From the NCBI RefSeq assembly GCF_032362555.1, contig NC_083523.1:8469501-8533500 (forward strand): a DNA stretch of 64,000 nt, in the 5' to 3' direction. The notes beneath the pieces are model-generated. The model worked only from the letters and a program-made list of their open reading frames with translations, had not been told where the DNA came from and did not search any database. The position numbers and the translations under genes are program-made. This document shows, piece after piece, positions 31,608 to 39,373 of the stretch (the first letter of the stretch is position 1; every line of letters begins with the position of its first letter). This DNA comes from Amyelois transitella. Its lineage: Eukaryota; Arthropoda; Insecta; Lepidoptera; Pyralidae.

Positions 31608-32652
31608 TCTCTAAATAAATGTTAAAAGTAACCTGCCCTAGTACATAAGTCCGCGACTCTGAAAAACTGCCGTGGGAAATTCTAGAAAAACTTAGCCTTT
31701 GACATTCCGAAGGTCTATTCTATATCTGTGCCAAATATGGTGATAATCAGTCCAGTAATTTTTGAGTTTATTCGTACAAAAATAAAATTGTTTCCTCTTT
31801 ATTATTTATTACTCACAAAATTTAGCTAATGAATCAGCTCAACTTGTCAAGAAAAACTACAGTGAATAATAAAGGACATTTTTTTCCTAATATACTTACC
31901 TATGTACTAAAGTGATCCTGGATATTTATTTTTATTTATATTACAAATCAGATGAATCGTAAAACAAAATACAAAAGTATCAAACGGAATAAACAGCAGG
32001 CCAACTCTTGACTTTGATTCGATCTCGATATTCGATCTCGATTCGATCTCGACAAAATCTGATATTGATCACAAAACGGTACTCTTGAGCCGAATCGAAT
32101 CGAAATCGAGATCGAGTTGAAATCAACCTAAGATGGCGATCCGTTAACCATTTCCGGGTAATGACGTAATCTACATCGAATGAAAGGTTCTTTATAGTGA
32201 CACTACTATCTAAAATTTTAAATTTACAATGACTTCTTTTCTTCCAAAAACACATATATTTTGTAATGTTTCTGTAAATATAAGCTATTTTACATCAAAT
32301 AAGGGCACAATAACTAGTGAAACGTTACTAATTTTCGATCAAACTAAAGAATTTTATTGGATTAATAAATACCTTTGCACAATTTTTAAAAAAGAACTTT
32401 GACAGTGACACTTCATAGAAAAAGGGGCGCGCGTTTATAAAAAAATTTAGTAAAAACAGAAAACTTTCAAGTGCTTGGAATGTTTGAAAAAATGTTTAAG
32501 TGGTTTTGTGTTGCCTTTTTAACAGAATTTATGTTATTTATTGATATGGGTTTTATAAGTAAGTCGAAGAGTGAGCTTCGTTTGTTCACACGTCTAATAT
32601 TTTTACTTCATCTGTTATATTTCCTTTAATACGCTATCAAAACTTTTTGAAC

Positions 32653-33995
32653 ATGAGTCAGAATGCAAGGCCTACATATCCCCAGTTGGAAGCTTTGGTG
32701 AATTTTTTGGAGGAAAATCCAGGAATAGCTAAAGGTCATCTGCGTTCCGCTCAAGCAAAGTGGGAGACTAAAAGAAAATGGGAAGAAATTACCATTACGC
32801 TAAATGCTATGGGAGGGACGCAAAAAGATGCCAAAGGTTGGACAAAGGTAAGATGTTTAATGCATGATATATAAATAATTAAATATTGCTAGTAGTTTCA
32901 TTGTGAAGATAATGTTGATGCATTTTTCTATGGATATTTACAAGTTTCTTTATTCAATCATAAATGTTTTATTAAAAAAGTATCAATATGCATAATGTTA
33001 ATGGTTATTTATTCGTTTTCAGTTTTGGACTGACAAAAAATATGCCCTAAAGAAAGTTTTAGGGCAGCGTAATGCAGATGCCAGCTGAACCGGAGGTGGT
33101 AGATCTGCCAACTTACCTCCACTCACATGTATAGAGGAGAGAATGGTGGCTATTCTTGGTGGCAGGGGTTTTGCAGAAGGGGACTCTCAGTTTAGTGTTC
33201 CAATACTACCATCTCAGGTGATAATTTTTATTAAAGAAGTTAAAATAGCAAAGAGAGATCGCATAAAATTTTGCATTTAAAATATTTATTCCACAATCCT
33301 TTGCCCCTCAGTGCTAAATTAAACAAAGAACTTATTGGAACATGCAGGTTAGAACCATGGAGTTGATAAATTTGTTTTTCTATTGTTAAACTAATTCTGA
33401 ATTATTGTAATTAGGACCAACCATCAACCAGCCAGCCATTGCCAGCCAGTGTAACATCAACACCACTAGGACAACAGGAAGATTCTATCGTCTTACCTCT
33501 ACCGGGAACTCCAGCCCACTCTCCACCTTTAGCCTCTATGCAATCTAGTAAGTTTGTCTTTCTATTTTATGCAATGGGAGTACAAACTTTGGATTTCTTC
33601 CCCTTTTTCAGCTAGATAAAATCTATATAATTATATATATATAATATGAAATTAATTACCTAAAGATTTATGTTATGTTAGTTAATAAATAAAGTTTACC
33701 AATATTATGTTTTAATTTTACAGCCCCGAGAAGAAGCCCTCGAATTCGAGCCAGGTTGAGTCGTCAAGCTGCCAGAACAACAGGAGAGCGAGGTAGGCGA
33801 TCTCAACTTCAAGTTGAAAGAGATCGCCTTGTTTCCATTGAAGAGAAGCGGGTCAAGGCAGAGCTTCTTCAGGCTAGAGCATTGCAAGAGAATATGGCGG
33901 GACTTGCTGCAGCTTGCAATAATATAGCTGAAGCCATATCAATATTTGGGGAAAGACTGGTTAATGTTGTAGAAACTTTTATGCAATCACATTAA
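32653..33995 (+). pseudogene. Harbinger Myb/SANT-like DNA-binding protein, in-frame stop
   Basis: Four exons fit with GT-AG introns in phase: 32,653-32,847, 33,023-33,217, 33,415-33,547 and 33,724-33,995. Exon 1 carries the Myb/SANT-like region (RPTYPQLEALVNFLEENPGI, then KWEEITITLNAMGG), which continues in exon 2 (FWTDKKYALKKVLG). The last exon is a charged coiled-coil-like tail (RLVSIEEKRVKAELLQARAL). In Harbinger elements this second protein partners the transposase, aiding nuclear import and end binding. A TGA at 33,086-33,088 in exon 2 interrupts an otherwise open 264-codon frame, with plausible protein sequence on both sides. Either the copy is dead for this gene, or a small exon boundary was misjudged. 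Confidence 0.75.
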
Positions 33996-34284
33996 AGTTT
34001 CTACAATTAAACGTAAAAGTAAAGTAGTTTTTGGATTTATGGATATGGATGGTATTGCTGTTTATTTGTTGTTTTTCTTTTTTATTCCATGTTATAACTA
34101 GTAGATTACATTAGTATTATTTGACAAATACCAATGTTAACAGAAATACTTTGTAATGTGTACCATATTTTTAAGTGTTACAATTATGTTTACTTAATAA
34201 TTTTTGCAATTAAATTAATAGCATACAGTAGTAGTGGTAGTATAAATGTATAAAATAAAACAATATTAATATGATATATCTTTA

Positions 34285-35855
34285 TTAATTTGTTCGTCTC
34301 CTTGTCCACAACATATTCACTATACGTTGCCGGGCTTCAACTCCTCTGCGCAGTTCCAGCGTGGCTCCAGCGCTGTGCGCGGCGGCGCTCGGCGCGGGCT
34401 CCGACGATGGCTGCTGCGCGGTGCCCGACGACAGCGAAGGGTTAACTTCGCTGGGGGAGGGGATGCGTGCTGTGTTACACATATTATGTAGCACACAACA
34501 TGCGTTAATTATTTTTGAAACCATGTCTGGTTTATAATGAAGCACCCTATGCTTCAGCAAACACCGCCAACGTGCCTTTAATAACCCTATCGTTCGTTCC
34601 ACTCTGTTACGAGCTGAACAGTGTATTTGTGTATAGAATTCTTCTGGAGAACCAGCTGCAGCATTGACAATTGGTGTCATCATGTACTCTCTTTGTGCAT
34701 ACCCCGAGTCACCTGCAAATATTAACAAGATGTCATTATTTAAGTTCAGCTTAGTACCTAGACTGGGCACCTATGCTTAACAGCTGAGGTAGCATCTAGG
34801 AAAATATTCTAATGAAATTTTTCCAATCATAGAAATGTAAATAAATAATAAAAATAAACACTTACCTAACAAATACACTGTCTCCCCTTGGTTCACTAAA
34901 TCAATTAGGTGATTTTTGATTGCATGTTGGTTAAAGATGTGTGAATCATGGGTAGCACCACCAAAACATGCATCTACACTTATAATATTTAGATCAAAAT
35001 CACATATCTGAAACAATAAAAAAATTAATATACCTTTTAACAGTGGCAACCTATACATTCACAAATTACTTCATTTGGTAAGGTATAGTTAATTTAAATG
35101 ATCTTACAATTTGCACATTTCTGGAATGGTAGTGTTTTCGGTTGAAATACCAATCCTCATTCTCTGATGGTCTTACCATGGCCACATGTGTTCCATCTAC
35201 ACAACCAATAACACCGGGTATTCCATATTTTTCATAGAATCTAAAAGTTAAAAAAAAATTATGAAATGTAATATTTATTATAAAATTTATGTTTCCTACA
35301 AACATTTTCCTATAAGAAAATTTTATTGTAACTACTTACTTCATCTTTATAGCATTCCGTTCATTAACATTAGTAGGGAACTTTATATATTTTTGTAGAA
35401 TTATTATTTGGTTGAACGCATCGGTCACCTCTTTGATACACCTTGACACTGACTGCTGTGACATTGCAGTACCATAGTTCCTTCCTACGATACGTTGATA
35501 ACTGCCTGATGCATAAAAAGAGAGAGCAACCAATATCTATAACAAGAAGAAAATTTAAAGATTTAGGTATAGATTTTAGAACTAGAACGAAAAAACTATA
35601 AAGAACTCAAATACTTGCCTTAAATTTTATGGGAATATCACTTCTGCGAGAAGGTGCCTTTAAGTATGGGGAGAGCACCTCCACAAGCTCCAAAAAAATT
35701 TCTTTTGTTATTCGATAGTTTGCCACAAATTCTTCATCGCCAATTTCTATAGCTGCTGCACAATAACGTGCTATTTGCGTTCTTCTTCTTCTTTGGCGTG
35801 CGTCAACTCTCTCAGCTTCATCCAATAAATTTAATTGTGCTGCAAGTCGAGCCAT
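34285..35855 (-). CDS. Harbinger (PIF) DDE transposase of the outer element
   Basis: Five exons join in phase: 35,855-35,619, 35,536-35,340, 35,240-35,108, 35,007-34,866 and 34,712-34,285, giving about 378 aa without a stop. The first intron uses a GC donor (AAG|GCAAGT); the others are GT-AG. Family marks of HARBI1-like DDE_Tnp_4 transposases are present. The first Asp is in GCVDGTHV (exon 3), the second in GDSGY (split across the exon 4/5 junction), and the Glu in ARNRVERTIGLLKARW. An N-terminal region with helix-turn-helix character (QQSVSRCIKEVTDAF) lies in exon 2. The protein would bind the element ends and cut and paste it. The start chosen is ATGGCTCGAC, since the frame upstream has no earlier ATG. 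The gene looks intact, unlike its Myb partner. Confidence 0.88.
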
Positions 35856-36304
35856 CCTGCTATCAATCCACAAAACAAAGTTGTAGACAAAAAATTGCAA
35901 ATATTTCCCAGCACTTTCACTCACGAAGAAAGATTATTGTATCTCAAAGCATTATTGTTAAAGAAACTTACCTATTTTCTATAATTTAATCTTGAAAACA
36001 CACTTTTGATTTCAAAAAAGTAGCGTCTTGTGAATCGTGTGATTTGACGTATGTTTTCGATTTAAACATGAGCATAACTCGATCTCGATAGTGTCGAGAG
36101 TAAAGGTACAGTTACACATGCTCATTACTAGCATGCTAAAAAACGTGCTATTAGTATGCTTAATATGAGTATGCTTATGAACTGTTTACATTTGCTAGCA
36201 ATAAGCATGCTAGTTTTAAGTATGCTACTAAATAAGCATGCTCAAAGCAAACACTCCAACACAAATGCGATTTTAGCATGCTCTTTGTTAGTTCAAACAA
36301 AACC

Positions 36305-38440
36305 ATGGACGATGAAACAACCATCCGTACGGAGCTTAATAAAGTTATTCTTTTGCTATCGTTGCAATGCATCCGAAGACTTCTCTCAGGTAGAAAGAGA
36401 AAAAACCAATGTAAAAGGAATAGGAAGATTTGGGTCCGTGATTGGCTAAGTAGAAGGGAACAACTTGGAGCAAGTACTCGATTGCTAGTAGAAATGCGAG
36501 AAGAAGATATTGATGGTTACAAAAATCATTTGCGCATGTTACCGCATCAGTTTGACGAATTACTATCTAAAGTTGAAAGCGCTATAAAGAAACAAGATAC
36601 ACACATGCGAAATGCTATTCCACCAAAAGTGAAACTGGAAGTGACATTGAGGTATCTAGCAACTGGAGATTCGTTATACACATTAGAAGCACTTCACAGA
36701 GTTGCAAGGTCTACTATATCTCTATTTATACCTGAAGTGTGTGATGCAATATACAATGTTCTGAAGGATTATATGCGGGTAAGTAAAGTAAACCAGTGAT
36801 TATTAGTTTAAATCAAGTATTTATTGTTTAAAATCTAGATTAAAAACTTACTAAACTAAATTTAACTTTAACACATTTTCCATGCTTTGTTCAACAAATC
36901 TTCTTCAGAGACAGTAGAATCTGATTGGGATAACGCGTAAGGAAGTGTGTAAGTGACTGTATTTGTGTTTGTACTGGGAGGTATGAAAGTCATTGTCTGT
37001 GTGTTTGTAGTAGGAGGAGTGTAAGTGACTGTATTTGTGTTTGTACTGGGAGGTATGAAAGTCATTGTCTGTGTGTTTGTAGTAGGAGGAGTGTAAGTGA
37101 CTGTATTTGTGTTTGTACTGGGAGGTATGAAAGTCATTGTCTGTGTGTTTGTAGTAGGAGGTGTGTAAGTGACTGTATTTGTGTTTGTACTGGGAGGTAT
37201 GAAAGTCATTGTTTGTGTAAAGGGAGACAAATTTGGGTACTGGCGTCGACGTCTTGCTGCAGTCAGAATTGTTTGGATCTCATGTTGTACATCTAATGCG
37301 TCGTACAATGGTAGAGTTCGCAATTGAGCTGCAACATTTTGAGCAAAATAATGGAATTCGTCGTAATTAGGCGGTGCATTTATAGCAGAACTAATATTTT
37401 GTAAACGATCGAGAGCATATGTAATGGGTTCTTCTTGTAAGCTTCTTTTTCTACGTCGTGTTGATGAGTTATTAGATGAACGCGATTGTGATCGATCTTC
37501 TGTAGTTGGACTAGGAGAGGGTGATAACACATTCATCGATTGCGGCGTCAACGAGTTTGAATATGAAACAGCGTCACTTGGTTGTGAATCTTGCGATGGC
37601 TCGTCTCTGTCTTGTATCTGTAAAAAAAATATATTAAGTTTATAAAATACTTATTTGTTTTTTTTACAGATTCCCGGTTCTGAAGATTGGAAACGCATTG
37701 AACATGGATTTAGAACTAAATGGAACTTTCCAGGTTGTGTCGGAGCGTTGGATGGCAAACATATAAATATATTCGCCCCTGATGATACTTCTGACTACTA
37801 TAACTACAAGGGCGCTCATAGCATCATACTTCTGGCATTAGTTGATGATGACTATTGTTTTTCATACGTAAATGTTGGGACTAATGGTAGAGCTTCTGAT
37901 GGAGGTGTTTATCAAAAATCTAATTTAGCACAAGCTTTGGAAAATAATTCTCTCAATTTTCCGGACCAATCAGTTATTGTGGCAGACGCTGCTTTTCCTC
38001 TAAAGTCATACCTTATGAAGCCCTATCGAACAACTCCAACGCGTAAAGAAAAAATATTTAACTACCGTTTATCGAGAGCCAGACGAATCGTTGAAAATGC
38101 GTTTGGTATTTTAGTGACACGATTTCGAGTTTTTATGGATGCCATAGATATGGCCCCCAAAAATGTCGATAGAATTACATTAGCTGCCTGCTCTTTACAC
38201 AATTGGCTTCGGAAAACATCTGATATGTACATCACGCAAAGATGCGTCGACTTTGAAGATACACAACAACGTGTTGTGGTACCAGGATCATGGAGGGCAC
38301 AACTACGGACTGCTTTGGAAGGCTTACCACCTACACGCTACGCTAACCACGCTTCTCGACAGGCAGGAGCGATAAGAGACATCTATGCGCAGCTCTTTGA
38401 AACTACAGAGGCGGTACCGTGGCAAGGTCATATGATTTAA
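36305..38440 (+). CDS. Harbinger DDE transposase of the inner element
   Basis: Two exons, 36,305-36,778 and 37,670-38,440, with donor CGG|GTAAGTA and acceptor TTTTTACAG|ATT in phase 0, give about 414 aa. The start ACCATGG has a good Kozak context. Exon 1 holds the basic N-terminus and helix-turn-helix region (KVKLEVTLRYLATGDSLYTL). Exon 2 holds the DDE_Tnp_4 catalytic core: Asp in GCVGALDGKH, Asp in IVADAAFPL, Glu in RRIVENAFGILVTRF. All three are present and there is no stop, so it could be active. The 891-bp intron contains, on the other strand, the whole second exon of the MADF gene. Confidence 0.9.
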
Positions 38441-38928
38441 ATTAATAACTACATAGAAAATGCTGTACTACTTATTCTATGATATTAAATAATTGTGTGT
38501 TACTAACAGTTACGTGCATTTTTATTTAAGTATTGTAAACCAAAACTCACCAATTCCATAGAAATAGGGTCCCTGTAATCGCCAGTGTCTCCAAGGAAAG
38601 AATGCATTTCGTGAAACCAGGACATAGATGGGTTGTACACAGTAGCGGCACCAGAACCGGATCGCTTGGAATTCTCAATTTTTTTTAATTCGCTGTGGTA
38701 AACGGACCTCAAGTTCTTGATTTTTGATTTTATAATTTTCACAGTCAAAGTAGGATCGTCCATGTTGGTTAATAAATCTTGATATGCATTATTTCTTGCA
38801 ATATTGTTTTTGTACTGTGGTATATGCGGATTCCATAGGCACTCGTTGTTCCGATATAAAATTACAAATTTCAACGTTTTTTCATCGCCCCAGCGAGACA
38901 TTTTTGGCGAGAAATTGTGCACGCGCAT
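36868..38928 (-). CDS. MADF-BESS-like partner protein of the inner Harbinger
   Basis: Two exons on the minus strand, 38,928-38,551 and 37,617-36,868, join in phase 0 (GAATTG|GTGAGT and TTTTTTTACAG|ATA) to give about 375 aa; a start at 38,901 (MSRWGDEKT) is equally possible. The first exon is a MADF (Myb/SANT-like) domain: a helix beginning TLKFVILYRNNECLWNP, then IKSKIKNLRSVYHSELKKIE. The C-terminal part of exon 2 has a BESS-like motif (FHYFAQNVAAQLRTLPLYDA, then IQTIL). Between them is a Thr/Pro/Asn-rich tract built of four 72-bp repeats. Such two-domain proteins bind DNA and assist Harbinger transposases. Its intron contains the second exon of the transposase on the other strand. Confidence 0.85.
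36949..37230 (-). repeat. 72-bp tandem repeats coding a Thr/Pro-rich linker
   Basis: Units start at 36,949, 37,021, 37,093 and 37,165 (exact 72-bp spacing). Each codes a 24-residue repeat (TMTFIPPSTNTNTVTYTPP and similar). The near identity of units suggests recent expansion. The frame is kept because 72 is a multiple of three. Confidence 0.9.
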
Positions 38929-39373
38929 CTACTGTGAACGACTGATCGCTACTAGCATGCTCAATAAGCAAACCTGTTTACACGCGCTAAAAGCACGCCC
39001 CCTTCCACCCGCGCCGCAGGTAGCATGCCCAAAAATCGCACGGCCGTCGATTTTTGAGCATACTCGTAATTAGCATGCTAATTATTAGCAATGTTTCGAC
39101 ACACATACCACTAAGTAGCAATTGCTCAATAGTGGCATGCTTTCGTGCTAGTAATGAGCATGTGTAACTGTAGCTTATAAGACATAACGGCGGTTTTCGA
39201 TTTCAAGTAGTTCACTATTCGACCACAACTCGATTGGCGCTTCGGTCGTTTTCCAGAGTACCAAATTACTGATTCTCGATGTCAATTCGATTTTGATCGT
39301 AACTCGACCGCGTCAAGAGTAACCCTACAGTTCAAAGTTATTAAGTACCTCTCATTTTGAAATAAGCTAAAGC

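Follow-up and report, generated by a model that had tools for sequence, protein, structure and literature searches.

The window analysed here, a 64,000-nt stretch of Amyelois transitella DNA, contains a 3,072-bp PIF/Harbinger element (36,104–39,175) whose two genes lie on opposite strands and, as we read the sequence with very high confidence, are interlocked through each other's introns. Along the plus strand the exons follow in the order transposase exon 1 (+), MADF exon 2 (−), transposase exon 2 (+) and MADF exon 1 (−). Specifically, transposase exon 1 (T1; 36,305–36,778, plus strand; 158 codons, with an in-frame ATG at 36,278 as an alternative start) ends in the donor CGG/GTAAGT and is followed by a phase 0 intron of 891 nt (36,779–37,669) and by exon 2 (T2; 37,670–38,440; 256 codons plus stop; acceptor TTTTTTTTACAG/ATT, phase 0), which matches DDE_Tnp_4 (PF13359; E 3.6e-32, 111.6 bits, cut-off 24.8). 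The MADF gene, on the minus strand, consists of exon 1 (M1; 38,551–38,928; two possible in-frame ATG starts, at 38,928 and 38,901; donor TTG/GTGAGT), which holds the whole MADF domain (PF10545, E 4.5e-16), a phase 0 intron of 933 nt (37,618–38,550) and exon 2 (M2; 36,868–37,617; 249 codons plus stop; acceptor TTTTTTTTACAG/ATA, phase 0). The transposase intron contains M2 antisense, the MADF intron contains T2 antisense, and the stretch intronic in both genes (37,618–37,669) is 52 nt long and bears two 3′ splice sites in opposed directions. A sequence-only reading of the window had proposed this interlocking, which was borne out to the base: all four splice sites conform to GT-AG and keep the phase, the acceptors it placed about 50 bases apart and opposed have 52 nt between them, and the two frames it described as intact are predicted to be open once spliced. 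Its further claim, that each transcript before splicing would be antisense to exons of the partner, follows, on paper, from the same exon arrangement.

The terminal inverted repeats of the element are 30 nt long and differ at one base between the ends. The left repeat (36,104–36,133, plus strand) begins AGGTACAGTTACACATGC and is flanked by TAA at 36,101–36,103, and the right repeat (39,146–39,175, minus strand) is flanked by TAT at 39,176–39,178. Inside each end is a subterminal array of AGCATGCT-like motifs, with seven around the putative transposase promoter (36,131–36,281) and five around the putative MADF promoter (38,955–39,140). All 12 are thus subterminal, with none in the 2,597-bp interior, and the maximum count in 2,000 shuffles of the element ends was 3. 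These motifs are candidate binding sites for the MADF protein or the transposase, by comparison with the subterminal motif that the Myb-like protein of Harbinger3_DR binds, as given in the part of PMC9710019 consulted here. The presence of a DDE_Tnp_4 transposase, a MADF second gene and terminal inverted repeats identifies the element as PIF/Harbinger.

Searched at the protein level, the genome of the window (327 Mb) has T2 at 100% rounded identity in six places and in one further copy that is broken into two parts, about 4.6 kb from each other, on contig 27. These seven near-identical copies occupy 6 contigs, and in each of them M2 and M1 lie at the corresponding positions of the other strand. 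Few substitutions separate the full copies from the window copy. Among the more altered ones, the C2 copy is changed at the end of transposase exon 1 (153/158 residues match), the C27 copy is the one split in two, the C19 copy at 1.87 Mb (L003) has a 21-nt in-frame deletion in the M2 tandem repeats, and the left end of the C30 copy was not found; the left terminal inverted repeat end is the same in 5/6 of the other copies. Reading of the flanks gave target duplications of TTA/TTA in three copies, TAA/TAA in one and TAT/TAT in one, the last not being of the PIF/Harbinger TWA type. The window copy has an unequal pair (TAA and TAT), in contrast to the equal pairs of five other copies. Where a domesticated pair would be a single copy with no TIR or TSD, we found seven copies with TIRs. 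Judged from these near-identical sequences, the inner element is a recently active DNA transposon of the PIF/Harbinger type, with a DDE transposase and a MADF-BESS-type partner.

With respect to more distant relatives, at least 158 transposase matches were found in the genome, down to about 40% identity, a lower bound because only the best candidates were scored; 148 were listed. The 148 were paired by coordinate with 122 of 150 MADF rows and 2 of 73 rows from another MADF-exon search; by inspection, none of the 28 MADF rows omitted lies within 6 kb of a listed transposase row. The nearest MADF match within 6 kb was downstream and opposite in 89 of the 148 listed rows, upstream and opposite in 11, downstream on the same strand in four, upstream on the same strand in three and absent in 41. 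An antisense M2 upstream of T2 was present in all 11 of the "absent" rows that were inspected (L032, L034, L035, L043, L045, L046, L048, L051, L055, L056 and L058; the MADF gene was seen only in part in L058 and L055), so absence in the pairing is not proof that the gene is absent. One of the downstream, same-strand rows (C32:2397948, L053) has antisense MADF exons of its own, and the same-strand match adjoins another transposase fragment; the other three we judge from coordinates to be neighbours.

The layout was then read in 34 transposase rows, with splice sites curated by hand for 29 representative rows. All four splice sites stand in the interlocked order in 21 rows and a consistent part of them in eight; two rows are side by side and three are uninterpretable (L024, with a degraded MADF exon 2; L027, a disrupted copy; and L060, a deletion copy). 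The 31 interpretable rows are therefore wholly or partly interlocked in 29 cases, and the six other near-identical copies match the window copy, which answers the question of conservation raised by the sequence-only reading. The incomplete rows include L033, which has no readable first MADF donor, and L055, in which MADF exon 1 was not found; stops, frameshifts or short exon 2 frames occur in L009, L012, L023, L051, L052 and L053. Across the 29 curated rows the gap between the opposed 3′ splice sites has a median of 78 nt and a minimum of 27. The uncounted loci are other copies or pieces of the same families (for example L010, L013, L014, L050, L061, L002–L008, L016, L018–L022, L025, L029 and L030), the survey covers one genome, and families outside it include those at C7:2792450, C32:7422844, C32:2875250 and C20:1860169. 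Contig C32, rich in relatives of a second, outer Harbinger of the window among the matches listed, is perhaps a repeat-rich sex chromosome.

These counts also bear on whether the arrangement in the window might be an artefact of assembly or of rearrangement in one copy. The idea draws on the position of the inner element beside or inside another Harbinger, and we regard its probability as practically nil: seven copies on 6 contigs and 29 wholly or partly interlocked family rows exclude it.

In the two side-by-side rows, L054 and L059, the transposase has no intron (and in L059 a frameshift), and MADF exons 2 and 1, in that order, come after it in a tail-to-tail arrangement; no clear remnant of a transposase exon was found in their short MADF introns. 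A DDE tree of the 34 rows, rooted at the midpoint with no outgroup, divides them into clade A (14 rows) and clade B (20 rows) with support 96/95, a split that coincides with the two positions of the transposase intron. The two side-by-side rows both belong to clade A, within a subclade of nine rows (98/95). When the outer Harbinger transposase, which has a very long branch, served as outgroup, clade A (13 rows, including L054) was recovered at 95/95, nested among B rows, and clade B was not monophyletic. On both trees the side-by-side layout is most simply derived, and because L054 and L059 are nested in an interlocked clade, interlocking was probably lost in them. The reverse case raised by the sequence-only reading, that relatives might lie side by side with the window copy as the rearranged one, does not apply for the same reason. 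Taken together, these observations indicate that the layout is an old design and not an accident of one copy, that it is the rule among the MADF-type Harbingers sampled, and that it is probably the ancestral plan of this group in this genome.

Beyond this genome the only relative found was L062, a 3,505-bp contig (CALINO010000055.1) binned in a marine bacterial (Arenicella) MAG; a scan of viral contigs returned no relative. With its eukaryotic-type Harbinger transposase, this contig is probably eukaryotic contamination of the bin. In its transposase the coding frame continues across the A and the B intron positions alike, so that the gene is interlocked at neither, and no MADF-like ORF was seen on reading through its ORFs of 55 aa or more.

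The interlock exists in two versions. The clade A transposase intron is phase 0 and lies immediately ahead of the [IVMF]P found upstream of the DDE domain, whereas in clade B it is phase 2 and lies about 43 codons earlier, in "TL-R-YL" or close variants. The MADF intron that contains T2 follows the MADF domain in clade A, where it is phase 0, and falls within the domain in clade B, where it is phase 1. In L017, L026, L027 and L033 the MADF gene has one more, small exon, and the MADF donor of L044 is weaker. As the clade B intron interrupts the domain, neither MADF exon alone holds it, and the domain is whole only after splicing: in all eight clade B spliced products scanned, PF10545 positions 1–84 or 2–84 run across the junction, which falls at residue 44–61. 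BESS exceeded its cut-off in five of these eight proteins, every time in the antisense exon. In the family scan as a whole, nine of nine spliced proteins contained MADF and five of nine BESS over the cut-off, all five from clade B; the one clade A protein scanned (L028) had MADF and no BESS match.

Because the intron positions of A and B are non-homologous in both genes, and L062 has neither transposase intron, reciprocal antisense interlocking may have arisen at least twice in this transposon group, a reading we consider doubtful. If it is true, the topology itself would have been selected, as a device that couples expression of transposase and partner or that bars either one alone.

The antisense exon carries much of this argument, and one might suppose that its frame is not a real coding sequence but an antisense ORF present by chance or as a remnant, the MADF gene itself stopping within exon 1 or beyond it. 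In the window copy M2 encodes a basic stretch, a BESS-like region and then a 72-nt in-frame tandem repeat (36,940–37,218; 3.9 copies, 98% matches), and no Pfam family, BESS included, exceeds its cut-off there; both the repeats and the lack of a Pfam match lend this idea some weight. Against it, clade B needs M2 for half of its MADF domain and for BESS, and an hhalign comparison of the clade A and clade B M2 profiles matches them over the BESS region (E 4.8e-6, probability 86). In 22/23 transposase introns the antisense ORF (260 aa in the window) is longer than those of all 200 dinucleotide shuffles; the exception is L055, in which 1/200 shuffles had one as long. The M2 sequence is also constrained, with pN/pS of 0.39–0.74 in 16 pairs, compared with 0.21–0.55 for transposase exon 2; these are rough values, since pS is near-saturated (0.63–0.87 for M2) and one M2 pair comprises 38 codons and one T2 pair 23. 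We therefore think a spurious M2 very improbable, and for clade B it is ruled out by the MADF domain that spans the spliced junction. A PDB sequence search gave one match, to an antibody chain (E 0.73), which we take as chance.

The two genes also show much the same history. A MADF tree of 24 rows recovers the A and B groups of the DDE tree (100/99); it includes 24 of the 27 spliced rows, with L009, L053 and L058 omitted and L017, L026 and L044 represented by exon 2 only. Groups common to both trees are 17/26, 48/52, 35/46, 51/56 and 12/15/32 with 34. The trees disagree on row 36, which groups with 43 by MADF and with 44 by DDE, and on the positions of 49 and 45; long branches also mark the 1/11 pairing.

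In terms of transcript ends, each gene of the window copy has a polyadenylation hexamer inside its partner's intron, namely AATAAA at 36,820–36,825 (minus strand) for the MADF gene, 43 nt beyond the stop, and ATTAAA at 38,484–38,489 (plus strand) for the transposase gene, 44 nt beyond the stop. Across families, transposase stops lie a median of 55.5 nt from the partner's donor and never closer than 13 nt, and MADF stops a median of 125.5 nt and never closer than 14 nt. AATAAA or ATTAAA is found in this spacer, ahead of the partner's exon, in 23/28 cases on the transposase side and 19/20 on the MADF side; the total of 42/48 compares with 22.9 expected by shuffling and with 22/48 on the wrong strand (P ~1e-11, a generous value as the families are not independent). 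In spacers of up to 60 nt a hexamer is present in 12/18, against 4.3 expected. The six spacers free of a hexamer are those of L009, L017, L026, L033 and L045 on the transposase side and L043 on the MADF side, and some 3′ UTRs therefore probably extend into the partner's exon. Overall, with the hexamers placed inside introns, the mature mRNAs should hardly overlap, the pre-mRNAs being antisense to one another, and any coupling would act mainly at the pre-mRNA level.

The window itself offers a comparison in the outer Harbinger, beside or within which the inner element is inserted. This element (32,650–35,933) has a multi-exon DDE_Tnp_4 transposase (ORFs 35,933–34,285, minus strand) and a partner at about 32,650–33,995 on the plus strand that matches Myb_DNA-bind_5 over the cut-off (E 2.8e-5) and has no MADF; its termini were searched for and not found. 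It resembles the inner element in having two convergent genes with introns, one of them a DDE_Tnp_4 transposase, and differs in that the genes lie side by side, tail to tail, with a Myb-like partner. The statement in the sequence-only reading that Harbinger genes usually stand side by side thus holds for this Myb-partner element and fails for the MADF-type Harbingers sampled.

Among known systems, the co-domesticated transposase–MADF pairs of insects, DPLG7/DPM7, APLG/APM and LPLG2/LPM2 (PMC9710019), are the nearest in content: as far as the main text describes them, they too combine a DDE transposase with a MADF partner, both from a single element, with some two-exon transposases and directions that are not always the same. 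They differ in being called adjacent, or next to each other, and the words opposite, overlap, orientation and nested do not occur in that main text, figures aside. Zebrafish Harbinger3_DR and rice PIF-type elements likewise encode two proteins, one of which, Myb-like, binds the ends and is required for the transposase to enter the nucleus (PMC9710019, PMC2836001); interlocked introns go unmentioned in the portions of their descriptions consulted. Nested or overlapping antisense pairs such as Pou5f1/Tcf19 are also opposite-strand genes that overlap across exons and introns (PMC8493703, in the text consulted), but exons are shared there, whereas those of the inner Harbinger exclude one another, in a reciprocal arrangement that has persisted through a transposon radiation. 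The open-access literature, in the parts seen, gave no account of interlocked Harbinger genes; an earlier mention may exist in Casola 2007, Kapitonov and Jurka 2004, Sinzelle 2008 or Repbase.

Building from this anatomy, transcription would begin near each end of the element, with the genes running towards each other, and each primary transcript would cross the partner's 3′ exon, which splicing would then remove. Polyadenylation would take place inside the partner's intron, so that each mRNA ends at or before the partner's first exon, and the primary transcripts would be antisense over about 1.7 kb. By analogy with zebrafish Harbinger3_DR, as presented in the available part of PMC9710019, the MADF protein may bind the AGCATGCT arrays and carry the transposase. 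The arrangement would further act as a topological lock, in which deleting, duplicating or moving either entire gene as a unit would carry along or disrupt an exon of its partner. Such a lock would keep transposase and partner as a co-inherited pair, with exon 1 of either gene still losable alone. The account we favor, and hold to be reasonably likely as a whole, is that of a recently active transposon with interdigitated genes, hardly overlapping mRNAs and an ancestral plan maintained by this lock.

As the reason why the layout was retained, we put the lock ahead of historical accident and of antisense regulation, albeit tentatively. It is not absolute, given that un-interlocking occurred in L054 and L059 and that loss of one gene's exon 1 would leave the other gene whole. 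The same two rows, and the same freedom to lose either exon 1 without harm to the other gene, are what one would expect had a single ancestral rearrangement been passively inherited, with no benefit and little barrier to undoing, as would be the single transposase intron position within each clade. Yet, deep as the divergence is, un-interlocking is seen in only 2/31 interpretable rows, and the topology is the same in the two clades although both intron positions have changed; as the introns are placed differently in A and B, a simple frozen layout is not a sufficient explanation, and we see accident as a possible but less probable cause. Regulation by antisense coupling, through overlapping pre-mRNAs, polymerase collision or nuclear double-stranded RNA, would tie the outputs of the two genes and damp transposition when both are highly transcribed. 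The anatomy guarantees antisense pre-mRNA over both second exons, the short spacers with their poly(A) hexamers look set to spare the mature mRNAs from antisense, and the layout has been kept across deep divergence, all of which such coupling would explain; no conserved regulation-specific feature was identified in the sequences, however, side-by-side relatives exist, and we think it unlikely to be the main reason. A benefit from compaction is also unlikely, by the reasoning that the same exons placed side by side with short introns would have about the same length. The lock therefore remains our preferred, if provisional, reason for retention.

On a larger scale, dense clusters of Harbinger copies from many families have nearly all their members in a single orientation among the matches listed, with 1 plus and 14 minus at C30:1.81–1.90 Mb and 14 plus and 1 minus at C7:2.76–3.11 Mb. 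Further one-orientation clusters, again among the matches listed, are at C20:1.82–1.92 Mb (8+/0−), C20:7.26–7.37 Mb (0+/6−) and C23:4.80–4.87 Mb (7+/1−). The regions were picked after seeing the data, the tally was made by hand, and C27 (2.6–3.2 Mb) is mixed. These clusters look like unistrand piRNA clusters, and for interlocked elements within them one orientation is antisense to the transposase and sense to the MADF exons.

For the biology of these transposons, the arrangement means that each protein would be obtainable only by removing an intron that bears the partner's exon from a transcript overlapped in antisense. It also suggests that gene calling on one strand would cut such elements into fragments. 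If the splicing is as predicted, the families would form a natural series, with two versions of the interlock and two undone rows, for testing regulation by convergent overlap, and a model for how the spliceosome handles opposed 3′ splice sites as close as 27 nt. It would likewise bear on why a transposase and its partner often travel, or become domesticated, together.
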